Assembly: GCA_016281015.1 (NCBI GenBank)
Contig: JAEEHS010000033.1
Location: 31,814-95,813, forward strand
Source of the DNA: Bacteroidales bacterium
GTDB lineage: Bacteria; Bacteroidota; Bacteroidia; Bacteroidales; UBA932
DNA length: 64,000 nucleotides
Reading direction: 5' to 3'
Shown here: in pieces, positions 4,319-30,675 of the stretch
How positions within the stretch are numbered: position 1 is the first letter of the stretch
Layout: each line of letters opens with the position of its first letter
Notes under the pieces: generated by a model
What the model saw: the letters and a program-made list of their open reading frames with translations, nothing else
Told to the model about the DNA's origin: nothing
Databases searched by the model: none
Position numbers and translations under genes: made by a program

Positions 4319-4493
4319 AAGTATAAAAATTTAAGTGTTTGTCCATTCATTCCGGCGTTACAATCCGGAATCTTGCAAATTTACAAGTTTTTTCTCAATT
4401 CCGGTAATTTTTGTTGTTTATCTTTCCCGGCGACGGAAAAATTTGGAATTGAGATGGAAAATCACTAAATTGGCAGAAACAAGTTCTGCGCCC

Positions 4494-6689
<2,196 letters not shown>

Positions 6690-6764
6690 CTGCCTCCTGA
6701 TTGCCCGAGGCTGCCGACACTATCCATCAGCCTATTCATAACGCACTCGTTTTCAATCACTTAC

Positions 6765-6915
6765 AAAACATCCCATGGACAGCCCTCCTGTTTTAGCCCC
6801 CGGTGTCCATGGACGCTTTTGTAACATACTAATGGACAATTAGTTACAATTCATCCCATGGACGCCCCTCCTGCAGGACTGGACATCCTCGTTACAACAT
6901 GGCGTCCAGCACGTC
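6765..6915 (-). repeat. Left arm of an inverted repeat: RAYT-A 3' tail plus palindromic repeat units
   Basis: Reverse complement reads gggcgacgtgctggacgccatgttgtaacgaggatgtccagtcctgcaggaggggcgtccatgggatgaattgtaactaattgtccattagtatgttacaaaagcgtccatggacaccgggggctaaaacaggaggg. Matches the + strand at 8861-9010 with small differences. Confidence 0.85.
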
Positions 6916-7827
6916 GCCCTCAATTCCCAGCAGCCGTCCGATCTGTGCTTTCGAAGCGCCGAAGCGGCGGGCGAGAGATCGGGCGAGCCGGAGCAATGAT
7001 TTCCTGTCCAGCTGCCGCGGGTTGGCGACATGAAACTCCTCCCGGCACAGGATGTGGACCCTTTCCATCAATTCTGAATCGGTGAAACGGAGTTGTTCCG
7101 CGAGCCCATGGGACAGGGCGACGATGGATTCCAAATCGTATTTCCGCAGGAGGTCGAACAGCTGAAGAGAGCCCTCGAACTGCGCCTGGACGCGCCTGTA
7201 ATCCACGAAGCATTTGTTCAGCAGGCATCCGCTCCGGTGCTCCCAGTCGGAAGGAATATGCTGCCGGGTATGGAACAGCACCCTCGCTTCCGCCGGGCCC
7301 GGGATGGGCTCGCCCCGGACATAATCCAGATCCTCCCGGAACAACACGTCGGCCGCACTCCATCGATAAGACAGTGGGCTGCATACCCTCGCTTTGTAGG
7401 GGTTCCGAAGTTGATAGGCAACTTCATTGCGTAACATCTGTGGGTCCCCGACCACGGAAATGTCCACATCCCCCAAATGGAGGATGTCCCGGAGACCGTA
7501 CTGCTCCCGTAGTATCCGGGCGAGCCGGAGCATGACCCAGTCATAGTAGGCGCAGCAGTCCGGGAATGAACCCTCCAGGAGCAGGTGCAGATGACTGTCC
7601 ATCAGCACGTAACAAAGCAGATGGACAGGAAATTTCACGGTTCCGATGGCCAGGGAATTGACACCGAAAACATAATCGGCGTCCTGATGGAAGAGCAGGT
7701 GTCTTTCCAGATGCTTCGAAGTAAACTGAAAAATGCCGGTGGCGGCGCCGAACGGCGGGGTATAATCTTTTCGTATCATCGTTTTTTCCGGAAAGTTGGC
7801 TATCATTTTCCACTTTGGCAACGACAT
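6892..7827 (-). CDS. REP-associated tyrosine transposase-like (Y1/HUH superfamily) protein with C-terminal HTH-like region (RAYT-A)
   Basis: HLLCYVLMDSHLHLLLEG (HUH-like) motif; C-terminal SLLRLARSLARRFGASKAQIGRLLGIEGDVL resembles an HTH; flanked by palindromic repeats. Confidence 0.75.
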   Translation of the reverse strand: MSLPKWKMIANFPEKTMIRKDYTPPFGAATGIFQFTSKHLERHLLFHQDADYVFGVNSLAIGTVKFPVHLLCYVLMDSHLHLLLEGSFPDCCAYYDWVMLRLARILREQYGLRDILHLGDVDISVVGDPQMLRNEVAYQLRNPYKARVCSPLSYRWSAADVLFREDLDYVRGEPIPGPAEARVLFHTRQHIPSDWEHRSGCLLNKCFVDYRRVQAQFEGSLQLFDLLRKYDLESIVALSHGLAEQLRFTDSELMERVHILCREEFHVANPRQLDRKSLLRLARSLARRFGASKAQIGRLLGIEGDVLDAML

Positions 7828-7952
7828 GAAAGATATTTCCCTGACACGCGAAAACGATTATTCGTAATTAACTGGTTTATAAGAAATTATCGGCCACCCT
7901 TGGGCGACCGATGAAAGAAAATTTATTGTGCACTATTTTTGTAGTGCAGCCG

Positions 7953-8801
7953 CTATTTGTTCAGGTTGATGAAAGGAAGGGCGTTGGAGCCGTTGTAGGT
8001 CGGCAGTTCGCCGTTCCACTTTTCAATGGCATACTGCTGGACCAGAAGGGCGTTCAGGGACGCCGCCACGACGCGGTTGTAGTAGGCCTCGCCGTCGCCC
8101 TGGATCTTCTGGGCTTCGGCCTCGCCCTTTGCCTTGGCGATGGCGATCTTTGCCTCAGCCTCTGCTTCTTTCACCTTGTTTTCGGCCTTGAGGGCATTCT
8201 GGACTGCTTCGTTCTTGGCATTGATGGCCGCAGTCAGGGAGGCCGGCGGATCGATCTTCGTCGTGAACTCCCGGACGATAAAGCCTTCCCGGTTCATGGA
8301 CTCGTCCAGCCGGGCGCGCACTTCGGCTTCGAACTTGGCCCGGTTGGCCATCAGTTCGTCGGAAGTGTAGTTGTTGGCGCAGGTCCGGTAGGCCTCGAAG
8401 ATACAGGTATTGATATAGCCCATTTCCAGTTCCCGCACCGGTTTGCGGTACTTGACGAAGATGTCAACCGCCTTTGATTCGTCAATCTGATAGGCCAGGG
8501 TCGGGGTCATGGAGAAGATGGCGGCATCCTTCGGGTTGACGGTGAAGGGTTCATAAGTCACCCGCTGGATGTAGGTCGGGTATTCGAAAATGCTCTCGGT
8601 GATGGGATTGTACCAGACCCATCCACGGCAGGTCCCTTCCACGCCGCCTTTGAGCGCCGCATTGGAGGACCATTTCTTGAACTTGATGCCGACCGACGCG
8701 GAGTCGATGGTGGTGCAGCAGGAAGTCATGACAAAGAGGATGAGGGCGACGACGCCGAGGGAAATCCAGGTGGCCTTCGCGGCCGTAGAAGTAGTTTTCA
8801 T
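7953..8801 (-). CDS. SPFH/prohibitin-family membrane protein
   Basis: N-terminal TM segment, prohibitin-like core, coiled coil AENKVKEAEAEAKIAIAKAKGEAEAQKIQGDGEA. Confidence 0.85.
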   Translation of the reverse strand: MKTTSTAAKATWISLGVVALILFVMTSCCTTIDSASVGIKFKKWSSNAALKGGVEGTCRGWVWYNPITESIFEYPTYIQRVTYEPFTVNPKDAAIFSMTPTLAYQIDESKAVDIFVKYRKPVRELEMGYINTCIFEAYRTCANNYTSDELMANRAKFEAEVRARLDESMNREGFIVREFTTKIDPPASLTAAINAKNEAVQNALKAENKVKEAEAEAKIAIAKAKGEAEAQKIQGDGEAYYNRVVAASLNALLVQQYAIEKWNGELPTYNGSNALPFINLNK

Positions 8802-8860
8802 GTCAGTTCGTATTTATACAAAGGTAAGTGTTTTGATCGGGAAATGCAAACCGGCCGGAT

Positions 8861-9090
8861 GGGCGACGTGCTGGACACCCCGGTGTAATGAGGATGTCCA
8901 GTCTATAGTCTATCTGGAGGGCTATCCATCGGGCATATTATAACGGGCTGCTAATGAGAGTGTTACGAAAGCGTCCATGGACACCGGGGGCTAAAACAGG
9001 AGGGGTATCCATGGGATGGATTGTAACTAACTGTCCATTAGTATGTTACGAAAGCGCCCATGGACACCAGGGGCTAAAACTGGAGGGGCG
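8861..9090 (+). repeat. Right arm: remnant RAYT-A 3' tail plus two 83-bp-period repeat units
   Basis: gggcgacgtgctggacaccccggtgtaatgaggatgtccag matches the RAYT-A tail (GDVLD..stop). tgttacgaaagcg(t/c)ccatggacacc(g/a)ggggctaaaac(a/t)ggagggg starts at 8961 and again at 9044. Confidence 0.85.
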
Positions 9091-9170
9091 GCCAGAGGGT
9101 CAGGGGCGAGGAGCCTTACTCGGCAGGGCGGGAAACCGGCGGGGAGCCGGGAAACTTACTCGGCGGGGAG

Positions 9171-10034
9171 TCAGTGGATGGCGCTGATCCAGTGGATGGT
9201 GGGGTCGCGGCGCCACCAGGTGAGCTGGCGCTTGGCGTAGTGGCGGGTGTCCACCTGGATGCGGCGGACGGCTTCCTCCAGCTCGCACTTGCCGTCGAAG
9301 TAGTCGAAGAGTTCGCGGTAGCCGACGGTCTGAAGGGCCGGAAGGTTCCGGTACGGGAGCATCCGCTCCGCCTCGGCGAGGAGCCCCTCGTCCATCATCC
9401 TGAGCACCCTCGCATTGATGCGTTCATAGAGTTCCTCCCGGGGCCGGTCCAGACCGATTTTCACGATGTCGAAGGAGCGTTCCTTGAAACGGCGGGATTT
9501 GAAGGAGGAGAAAGGCTTCCCGGTGTAGAGGCAGACTTCCAGCGCCCGGATGACCCGGCGGCCGTTCGAACGGTCGATTTCCGCCCAGGTCTCGGGGTCC
9601 ATCTCCTTCAGCTGCTCCGCCAGGACCCCCACTCCCTCGCTCTGGAGGCATTCCATGAGATGCTCCCGAAGTTGGATGGGCACTTCCGGGAAGTCGTCCA
9701 GTCCATAGCAGAGCGCGTCGATGTACATCATGGAACCGCCGGAGACGATGAGGGTTTCATGTCCCTCGGCGAAAAGCCGTTCAATCAGCTCCAGGGCCTC
9801 CGCTTCGTAGATGCCGGCGGTGTAGGGGGTGTGGATGGAATGGGATTGGATAAAAAAATGCGGGACGGCGGCCAGCTGTTCCGCGCTCGGGACGGCCGTC
9901 CCGATGGAAAGTTCCCGGAAAATCTGCCGGCTGTCACAGGAGATGACGGGGCTCCCGCATTCCAGCGCGCGGGAAATACTGTAGTCCGTTTTTCCCACCG
10001 CCGTCGGCCCAAGAATGATTTCCAGGCGCCTCAC
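9171..10034 (-). CDS. miaA: tRNA dimethylallyltransferase
   Basis: ILGPTAVGKTDYSI...VISCDSRQIFRELSIGTAVPS; C-terminal TRHYAKRQLTWWRRDPTIHW. Confidence 0.96.
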   Translation of the reverse strand: MRRLEIILGPTAVGKTDYSISRALECGSPVISCDSRQIFRELSIGTAVPSAEQLAAVPHFFIQSHSIHTPYTAGIYEAEALELIERLFAEGHETLIVSGGSMMYIDALCYGLDDFPEVPIQLREHLMECLQSEGVGVLAEQLKEMDPETWAEIDRSNGRRVIRALEVCLYTGKPFSSFKSRRFKERSFDIVKIGLDRPREELYERINARVLRMMDEGLLAEAERMLPYRNLPALQTVGYRELFDYFDGKCELEEAVRRIQVDTRHYAKRQLTWWRRDPTIHWISAIH

Positions 10035-29656: not shown

Positions 29657-30580
29657 CTACATCCGCCGGAGTTCTAGATGGAGGAACTTGGCAATCTGCT
29701 CCGAGCGGGCATAACTGGCTTCCCTCAGAACGGGAAATAACTGCTGCCGATGCGCTGTTTCCATGGCGAGAAAGGCTTTCGGATTGGATGGATACTGCTT
29801 TTCCATGACCGAGAACATGGGACCATAATCCCTGTCACTGACCCCACAAAAGGATTCCTTGATGTCGTATTCCGCCCCCGTATTGGAATTGACGGCCAGA
29901 AGCATGGATTCATAGCTACCATACAAACGGATAGACGCTTGATAGTCAATGACATTATAAGCACAGATAATACGGTCCGTCAGCTGAAACTGTTCTTTCT
30001 CACTGAGCCCGTCAAATAGGCGGCCCAGAAGCGGATAAGTAAGCGGTCGACCTGTCCTGGCCAGACTGTCCACATATTCGATGGCCCATCTCAAATGGGC
30101 AGAAGGGCGACCCGATGAAAGTGGAGAGGAGAAAGGATGGTCGCTGACGGCATAGGCGAGGAAGTTCCACTGGTAATCCTCCGCCCGCTTGGTCAGTTTC
30201 CTTTCCGGCCCATTGTTGGCAAGATAGGCAAAGGCTGTACGAAGCTGCTTCTCTCTTTGTTTCAGTGCACTGCCATACGTCTCAAACACCGGTCCCTTCC
30301 GTCCACAGGATGCGTTCCAGGCCTTGGCGAACCAAGCGTGGGTTTCCCTTTCGTAGCAGATCCGGTCTTGCTCATGGGCCGCACGGACCAGTTCATGGAT
30401 ATGGTCGACCATCAGGCAAAGACCCATCACGTCAATCTGGTACTTCCTGGCCACGACCGAGACAATGCTGAAATAGACCAATCGGTCATGGACACTGTAG
30501 AACAGCAGGCCGCCGTCACAGCTTCTCCTGTAAATGTGCTCCCATGCTCCCGGGATGAATTTTCGAATCTGACCCCTCAT
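29657..30580 (-). CDS. IS200-like / REP-associated Y1 transposase family protein (RAYT-B)
   Basis: GAWEHIYRRSCDGGLLFYSVHDRLVYFSIVSVVARKYQIDVMGLCLMVDHIHELVRA (HUH-like HIH). ATG at 30580 preferred; flanked by repeats at 29528 and 30676. Confidence 0.78.
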   Translation of the reverse strand: MRGQIRKFIPGAWEHIYRRSCDGGLLFYSVHDRLVYFSIVSVVARKYQIDVMGLCLMVDHIHELVRAAHEQDRICYERETHAWFAKAWNASCGRKGPVFETYGSALKQREKQLRTAFAYLANNGPERKLTKRAEDYQWNFLAYAVSDHPFSSPLSSGRPSAHLRWAIEYVDSLARTGRPLTYPLLGRLFDGLSEKEQFQLTDRIICAYNVIDYQASIRLYGSYESMLLAVNSNTGAEYDIKESFCGVSDRDYGPMFSVMEKQYPSNPKAFLAMETAHRQQLFPVLREASYARSEQIAKFLHLELRRM

Positions 30581-30675
30581 ACGCTTTGATGATTTGCATG
30601 GACGACTTGTCCATTGCAAAGTAAAGGAATCGTTTCGGAAAAAGCAAGGATTTTTCTACATTTTTTATGTATGTG

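Follow-up and report, generated by a model that had tools for sequence, protein, structure and literature searches.

The window, that is, the whole stretch of 64,000 nucleotides analysed, contains a RAYT (REP-associated tyrosine transposase) locus, RAYT-A, which is read here, with a probability of roughly 0.7, as a vertically inherited locus of the REPtron/TIRtron type in which the segment lying between the paired arms can invert, with homologous recombination as the probable mechanism. According to this reading, a single-copy, vertically inherited RAYT would stand between two arms in inverted orientation, made up of its own palindromic repeats, and each arm would be, or descend from, a bipartite palindrome of about 151 bp. 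Recombination or copying between the arms, shown in relatives, would keep them alike, and the segment between them would invert as a block, as shown once between sister species and as is probable elsewhere, presumably through the homologous recombination of the host. These inversions, together with other local rearrangements, would swap the core gene located between the RAYT and the far arm, which is SPFH here. The locus gives the impression of a site prone to inversion and not of a mobile gene-carrying unit. As a variant within an already described type of RAYT locus, it is noteworthy for the matching palindromic ends at inversion breakpoints. RAYTs are regarded as domesticated transposases active in copying short repeats, and the locus bears on the question of what maintains them: in the RAYT-A lineage, two large matching ends persist around the gene while the sequence of these ends turns over, and inversion breakpoints in a core-gene neighbourhood fall at these ends. 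The locus offers a concrete system for testing the action of a RAYT on its own flanks and its effect on gene order.

RAYT-A and its two arms in the window

The host genome is a Bacteroidales MAG of 2.35 Mb, in 84 contigs and 84% complete, whose named relatives are mostly ruminant-gut MAGs. The RAYT-A locus is bordered on the left by recQ (4335..6689, + strand) and on the right by miaA, encoding an IPP transferase (9171..10034, - strand). Between them, the window shows the left arm, downstream of RAYT-A (6723..6919, - strand), which contains the hairpin of the RAYT 3' tail and repeat units and overlaps the last 28 bp of the RAYT coding sequence; RAYT-A (6892..7827, - strand), a single-copy gene encoding an HUH/Y1 tyrosine transposase of 311 aa with a helical C-terminal extension; a gene encoding an SPFH/Band_7 protein (7953..8801, - strand; Band_7 E=1e-20), located between the arms; and the right arm, upstream of RAYT-A (8861..9094, + strand), which is inverted with respect to the left arm and contains an orphan RAYT tail (8861-8903) and repeat units. 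The right arm sits in the gap between miaA and SPFH, and the left-arm units run toward recQ. No Rfam match was found across 6600-9200.

The initial annotation had described inverted arms derived from the end of RAYT-A, and this is confirmed: the complement of 6723-6919 aligns with 8861-9064 of the + strand over 204 bp with 73.5% identity (E=2.7e-34, BLAST against a 14-kb stretch), a match far beyond chance. A 98-bp arm piece (6776-6873 versus 8997-9094) is 89% complementary and a 43-bp tail piece (6877-6919 versus 8861-8903) is 88% complementary. The arm size, previously given as about 150 bp, is actually about 200-235 bp. The right-arm copy holds the last 8-9 RAYT codons and the stop, only about 28 bp of coding sequence; it reads GDVLDTPV*, and the end of RAYT-A itself reads GDVLDAML*. 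These coding bases belong to a hairpin, CTGGAC...GTCCAG, within which the RAYT stop codon lies. The right arm also shows one detectable bipartite palindromic element, A-s1-A'-loop-A-s2-A', of 148 bp (8921..9068, + strand), with the stem CATGGACACC / GGTATCCATG. Arm copies elsewhere, which the initial annotation had proposed to look for, exist but are few, and no second whole block is present in the window genome: only two further weak places were found in this genome and about five extra places in G053, rather than the many dispersed repeat copies of a REPIN population, and MAG assembly may hide some of them. The only two dispersed arm-like copies of the window genome lie next to arrays in which 22-bp repeats of the GGGGAAGGTCC type occur together with inverted arms of 36 nt (L007 and L008; C21:105609 and C75:32625).

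No Pfam family matches RAYT-A at E 0.001. The NCBIfam family REP_Tyr_transpos (NF047646) matches the RAYT-A of the window, but below the curated cutoff, and matches 28 of 30 orthologues (best 7.6e-11). In the alignment of these 30 orthologues, H81 and Tyr138 are invariant, H79 is conserved in at least 90%, and the catalytic Tyr lies in the context Y-x-L-R-N, usually Y-I-L-R-N-P. The HUH motif and single catalytic Tyr of RAYT / TnpAREP proteins (class 2 Y1 transposases) are present, as is a match to a profile or fold of a known family. The predicted structure (pLDDT 85) includes the C-terminal helices, and its best PDB match (E 1.6e-4) is 4er8, the structure of a RAYT in complex with a REP hairpin, followed by IS200/IS608-type transposases. 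Since the profile, the conservation of HUH and Tyr138 and the fold match to 4er8 agree, RAYT-A is a RAYT with an extra C-terminal helical region.

Among 400 same-genus genomes searched, 45 show a RAYT-A match at E 1e-45 or better. The orthologues, from rumen Bacteroidales MAGs of the same genus, show 38-53% aa identity, and no closer RAYT-A turned up when nearer relatives were looked for (best, about 53% identical). RAYT-A was not found in plasmid or phage collections at E 1e-8. A scan of genome contigs with the RAYT-A protein as query gave no match. In the window genome, the three other RAYT-like genes are only 22-24% identical to RAYT-A. Decay intermediates, which the initial annotation expected in relatives, are present: in G363 (L139) RAYT-A lost its last residues at the arm, the truncation falling exactly where the arms turn identical, and in G335 (L134) part of the HUH motif is missing.

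Palindromic ends and inversions in the relatives

RAYT-A orthologues in these rumen MAGs are commonly framed by inverted arms. G050 and G053 show inverted arms on both sides of the RAYT, about 164 bp long and 95-97% identical; other two-arm loci are those of G125 (88%), G223 (81%), G363 (66/66 bp) and G091/G085 (67%), and in G020 the arms flank the RAYT without any cargo gene. The typical arm, about 151 bp long, has the form of a bipartite palindrome with the distribution A-s1-A'-loop-A-s2-A'. With a pattern search, RAYT-A loci and their vicinity gave 27 elements measuring 147-156 bp, compared with 0.4 in shuffles; the 27 include two near-identical species and one likely coding false positive (L132), and the 140-160 bp length filter narrows the spread of lengths, the same length being obtained at most RAYT ends in an unfiltered run. 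A reversed-sequence control of the arm scan was uninformative because the element is symmetric. Stems vary by lineage, for example CCGCAGGCCT, GTTCCGAACC, ATGGAAGGTC and TGTTAACCCC, while pairing and spacing persist, and the spacers tend to hold an AT-rich inner palindrome of the form TTTGTAA...TTACAAA. Between G216 and G231, whose genes are 92% identical, the arm stems are already different. The arm is a structure that persists while its sequence turns over.

In one clade of the tree, RAYT-A is paired with DUF1015 between serA and recQ. The DUF1015-RAYT block shows one orientation in G063, G068, G148, G294 and G365, and the other in G231 and G273. As in the window, recQ borders RAYT-A or its arm in the first five genomes and in G231, and the intact contigs of these six show both block orientations within the serA-recQ interval. 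The sister species G216 and G231 (92% DNA identity) show the 3-kb block oppositely oriented, with both joins in arm regions: in their alignment, the block from -2970 to +23 is direct at 92.4% and the serA block is inverted at 92-94%. The link between arms and inversion made by the initial annotation is supported by these breakpoints, although the inverted segment is the DUF1015-RAYT block and not the SPFH block; no relative shows the SPFH block of the window inverted between miaA and recQ. High-identity inversion is shown in this pair only, the comparisons between species use one genome per species, all of them MAGs, and the contig of G216 ends about 740 bp past the RAYT in an insertion-sequence-like stretch. 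Since the arms of G231 are only 74% alike, misassembly by repeat confusion is unlikely there. Judged from these alignments, the arms do mark inversion breakpoints. At the 3' end of the G216 contig (L124), an IS3-like integrase stretch was seen by eye about 200 bp past the RAYT arm. In a sample of 101 genomes, serA and DUF1015 are adjacent and on the same strand in 76, and only G063 and G068, which both have RAYT-A at this place, show DUF1015 immediately downstream of serA in flipped orientation; because the two genomes are related, they do not count as independent cases.

The arms also show concerted evolution, being 91% (G050) and 96.5% (G053) alike within a genome and 81-84% between genomes. 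Such likeness within genomes is the signature of arms that exchange sequence. In G091/G085, a very close pair, no homogenisation within genomes is seen, and arm exchange is thus not constant. As an alternative, dispersed REPINs could have landed independently and by chance on both sides of the RAYT, the rearrangement having other causes. The few dispersed copies of G053 and the window genome are consistent with it, as is rearrangement in places where RAYT-A is absent: DUF1015 is relocated in G023, G046 and G047, which have no RAYT-A, and, in genomes where SPFH has no adjacent RAYT, it faces metG in either orientation. Since the neighbourhood rearranges without RAYT-A too, the arms are one cause at most. 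However, the orphan RAYT coding tail, the high arm identity within G050, G053 and G363 and the arm-bounded inversion point to exchange between arms, and independent insertion is considered unlikely. It is quite unlikely that RAYT-A itself catalyses the inversion and homogenisation of the arms, with the palindrome of about 151 bp as recombination site and lineage-specific stems that co-evolve with the enzyme; if true, this would be a RAYT-driven invertible locus.

The orphan tail and the SPFH gene

Under the preferred reading of a single RAYT between exchanging arms, the terminal hairpin overlaps the RAYT stop codon, and the orphan RAYT tail is for this reason best taken as the inner edge of the repeated arm; the same trace would be left by a conversion tract that extended into the RAYT gene. 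The right arm is the ordinary second arm, and a deleted second RAYT is unneeded. The initial annotation had taken this arm for the remaining tail end of a second RAYT in inverted orientation, the rest of which had been deleted. The in-frame stop and about 28 bp of coding sequence in the orphan tail agree with such a scar, and in G351 and G324 the RAYT is found at the opposite side of SPFH, which indicates that its position varies. However, the RAYT of these two genomes would leave a tail pointing the opposite way, no relative was found with two inverted RAYT-A genes at the locus, and many species show the second arm without any RAYT body. As two arms with one RAYT are common in the orthologues, this explanation was set aside as improbable.

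Between species whose RAYTs share about 46-50% identity, the SPFH proteins share 92-94%, and SPFH is located next to metG and/or miaA without a RAYT beside it in L166, L172, L177, L178, L190, L198 and others. Since the divergences of SPFH and RAYT are discordant and SPFH keeps its miaA/metG neighbourhood without RAYT, SPFH is an ordinary neighbour and not cargo. L166 shows a short, arm-free gap between miaA and SPFH, the equivalent of the empty site for the right arm that the initial annotation had proposed to look for. The comparison of G063 with G148 as an empty site for one arm was rejected: the arm is replaced by an unrelated hairpin, so there is no clean boundary. The 1.3-kb gap between miaA and SPFH in L190 was considered as a dead RAYT and rejected, as it gave no significant RAYT match. 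By eye, L190 shows at about 4700-6000 an unrelated transporter-like gene (sodium:dicarboxylate symporter) between miaA and SPFH, filling the gap that holds the right arm in the window. Among the SPFH loci L165-L225, SPFH faces metG in about ten and follows metG co-directionally in about eight, with no RAYT beside it, so that SPFH changes orientation at places lacking an adjacent RAYT too.

The gene next to the RAYT also differs in position and identity. SPFH is upstream of the RAYT and divergent in G050, G053, G165, G223, G363 and G389, upstream and co-directional in the window and G125, and downstream in G351 and G324; at other loci the arms enclose DUF1015, lpxK, or SPFH together with another gene. 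A mobile composite unit, with the inverted arms as transposon ends and RAYT and SPFH as cargo, had also been suggested and is very improbable: about ten genomes have RAYT next to SPFH, several of them with arms outside the pair, and the HUH and Tyr residues of RAYT-A are intact, but the discordant divergences, on which this explanation was rejected, largely refute it, SPFH stands beside miaA/metG without RAYT (L166, L190 and L198), the pair takes differing relative orientations, no second copy of the block is present in the window genome and none in the plasmid and phage collections, and neither a block at unrelated sites nor the co-inheritance of a transposon with cargo was found.

Comparison with known RAYT loci

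TIRtrons are RAYT genes flanked by long terminal inverted repeats, some of which overlap the gene 3' end (PMC3733652), and most of their RAYTs (TIRYT) fall in TnpAREP subclass 2.1 (PMC6006769). The RAYT-A locus is like them in showing a Y1/HUH transposase with a C-terminal extension and long flanking inverted repeats, and in TIRtrons these repeats can likewise overlap the gene 3' end ('3'ov'), with partial self-complementarity and a moderate number of copies in some cases (PMC3733652). Unlike in TIRtrons, the published motif GGGGWSAS is not common to the RAYT-A arms, being absent from both arms of the window and from most other arms; the published description gives this motif for only some TIRs, so it is not strictly defining. 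The RAYT-A arms differ also in being bipartite palindromes of nearly fixed length, with lineage-specific stems, that often enclose a neighbour gene. Concerning the C-terminal HTH of subclass 2.1 (Bac_DnaA_C, HTH_23 or HTH_28), the matches obtained were weak and Xre-like-HTH (E 0.017 in the RAYT-A of the window and 0.0058 in one orthologue), and the structural model shows helices at the C-terminus. TnpAREP subclass 2.6 shares with RAYT-A its occurrence in Bacteroidetes, atypical flanking structures and copies elsewhere in the genome, but its proteins have about 179 aa (PMC6006769), and RAYT-A has about 300 aa with the C-terminal extension.

As in REPtrons and REPIN-RAYT systems, the RAYT is single-copy and vertical and has its own family of palindromic repeats in inverted relation (PMC3116915, PMC8049555); unlike in these systems, the window arms lack a GTAG-type foot (GT[AG]G, that is, GTAG or GTGG, was looked for), dispersed copies are very few and the elements are of about 151 bp. 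Transposition of REPtrons as whole units is reported not to occur (PMC6006769), and RAYTs are reported to be single-copy and vertically inherited (PMC8049555). The window locus fits this picture of a single-copy, vertically inherited, non-transposing RAYT. A segment between inverted IS or rRNA copies can flip; unlike in such inversions, the repeats here are only the palindromic RAYT ends of about 150-235 bp, and the block includes the RAYT. A limited literature search found no paper on arm-bounded inversion at RAYT loci.

The window contains a second RAYT-like ORF (29657-30619, - strand) of 320 aa, with the HUH-like motif VDHIHELV and a weak match to a RAYT-A orthologue (E 2e-5). Elsewhere in the window genome, L002, L003 and L004 (contigs C74, C46 and C2) show other RAYT-like genes, each with its own, differing tandem repeat units beside it. 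The units are located on both sides of the RAYT-like gene in L002 and L003, and in L003 the 52-bp units recur inverted about 4.1 kb downstream.
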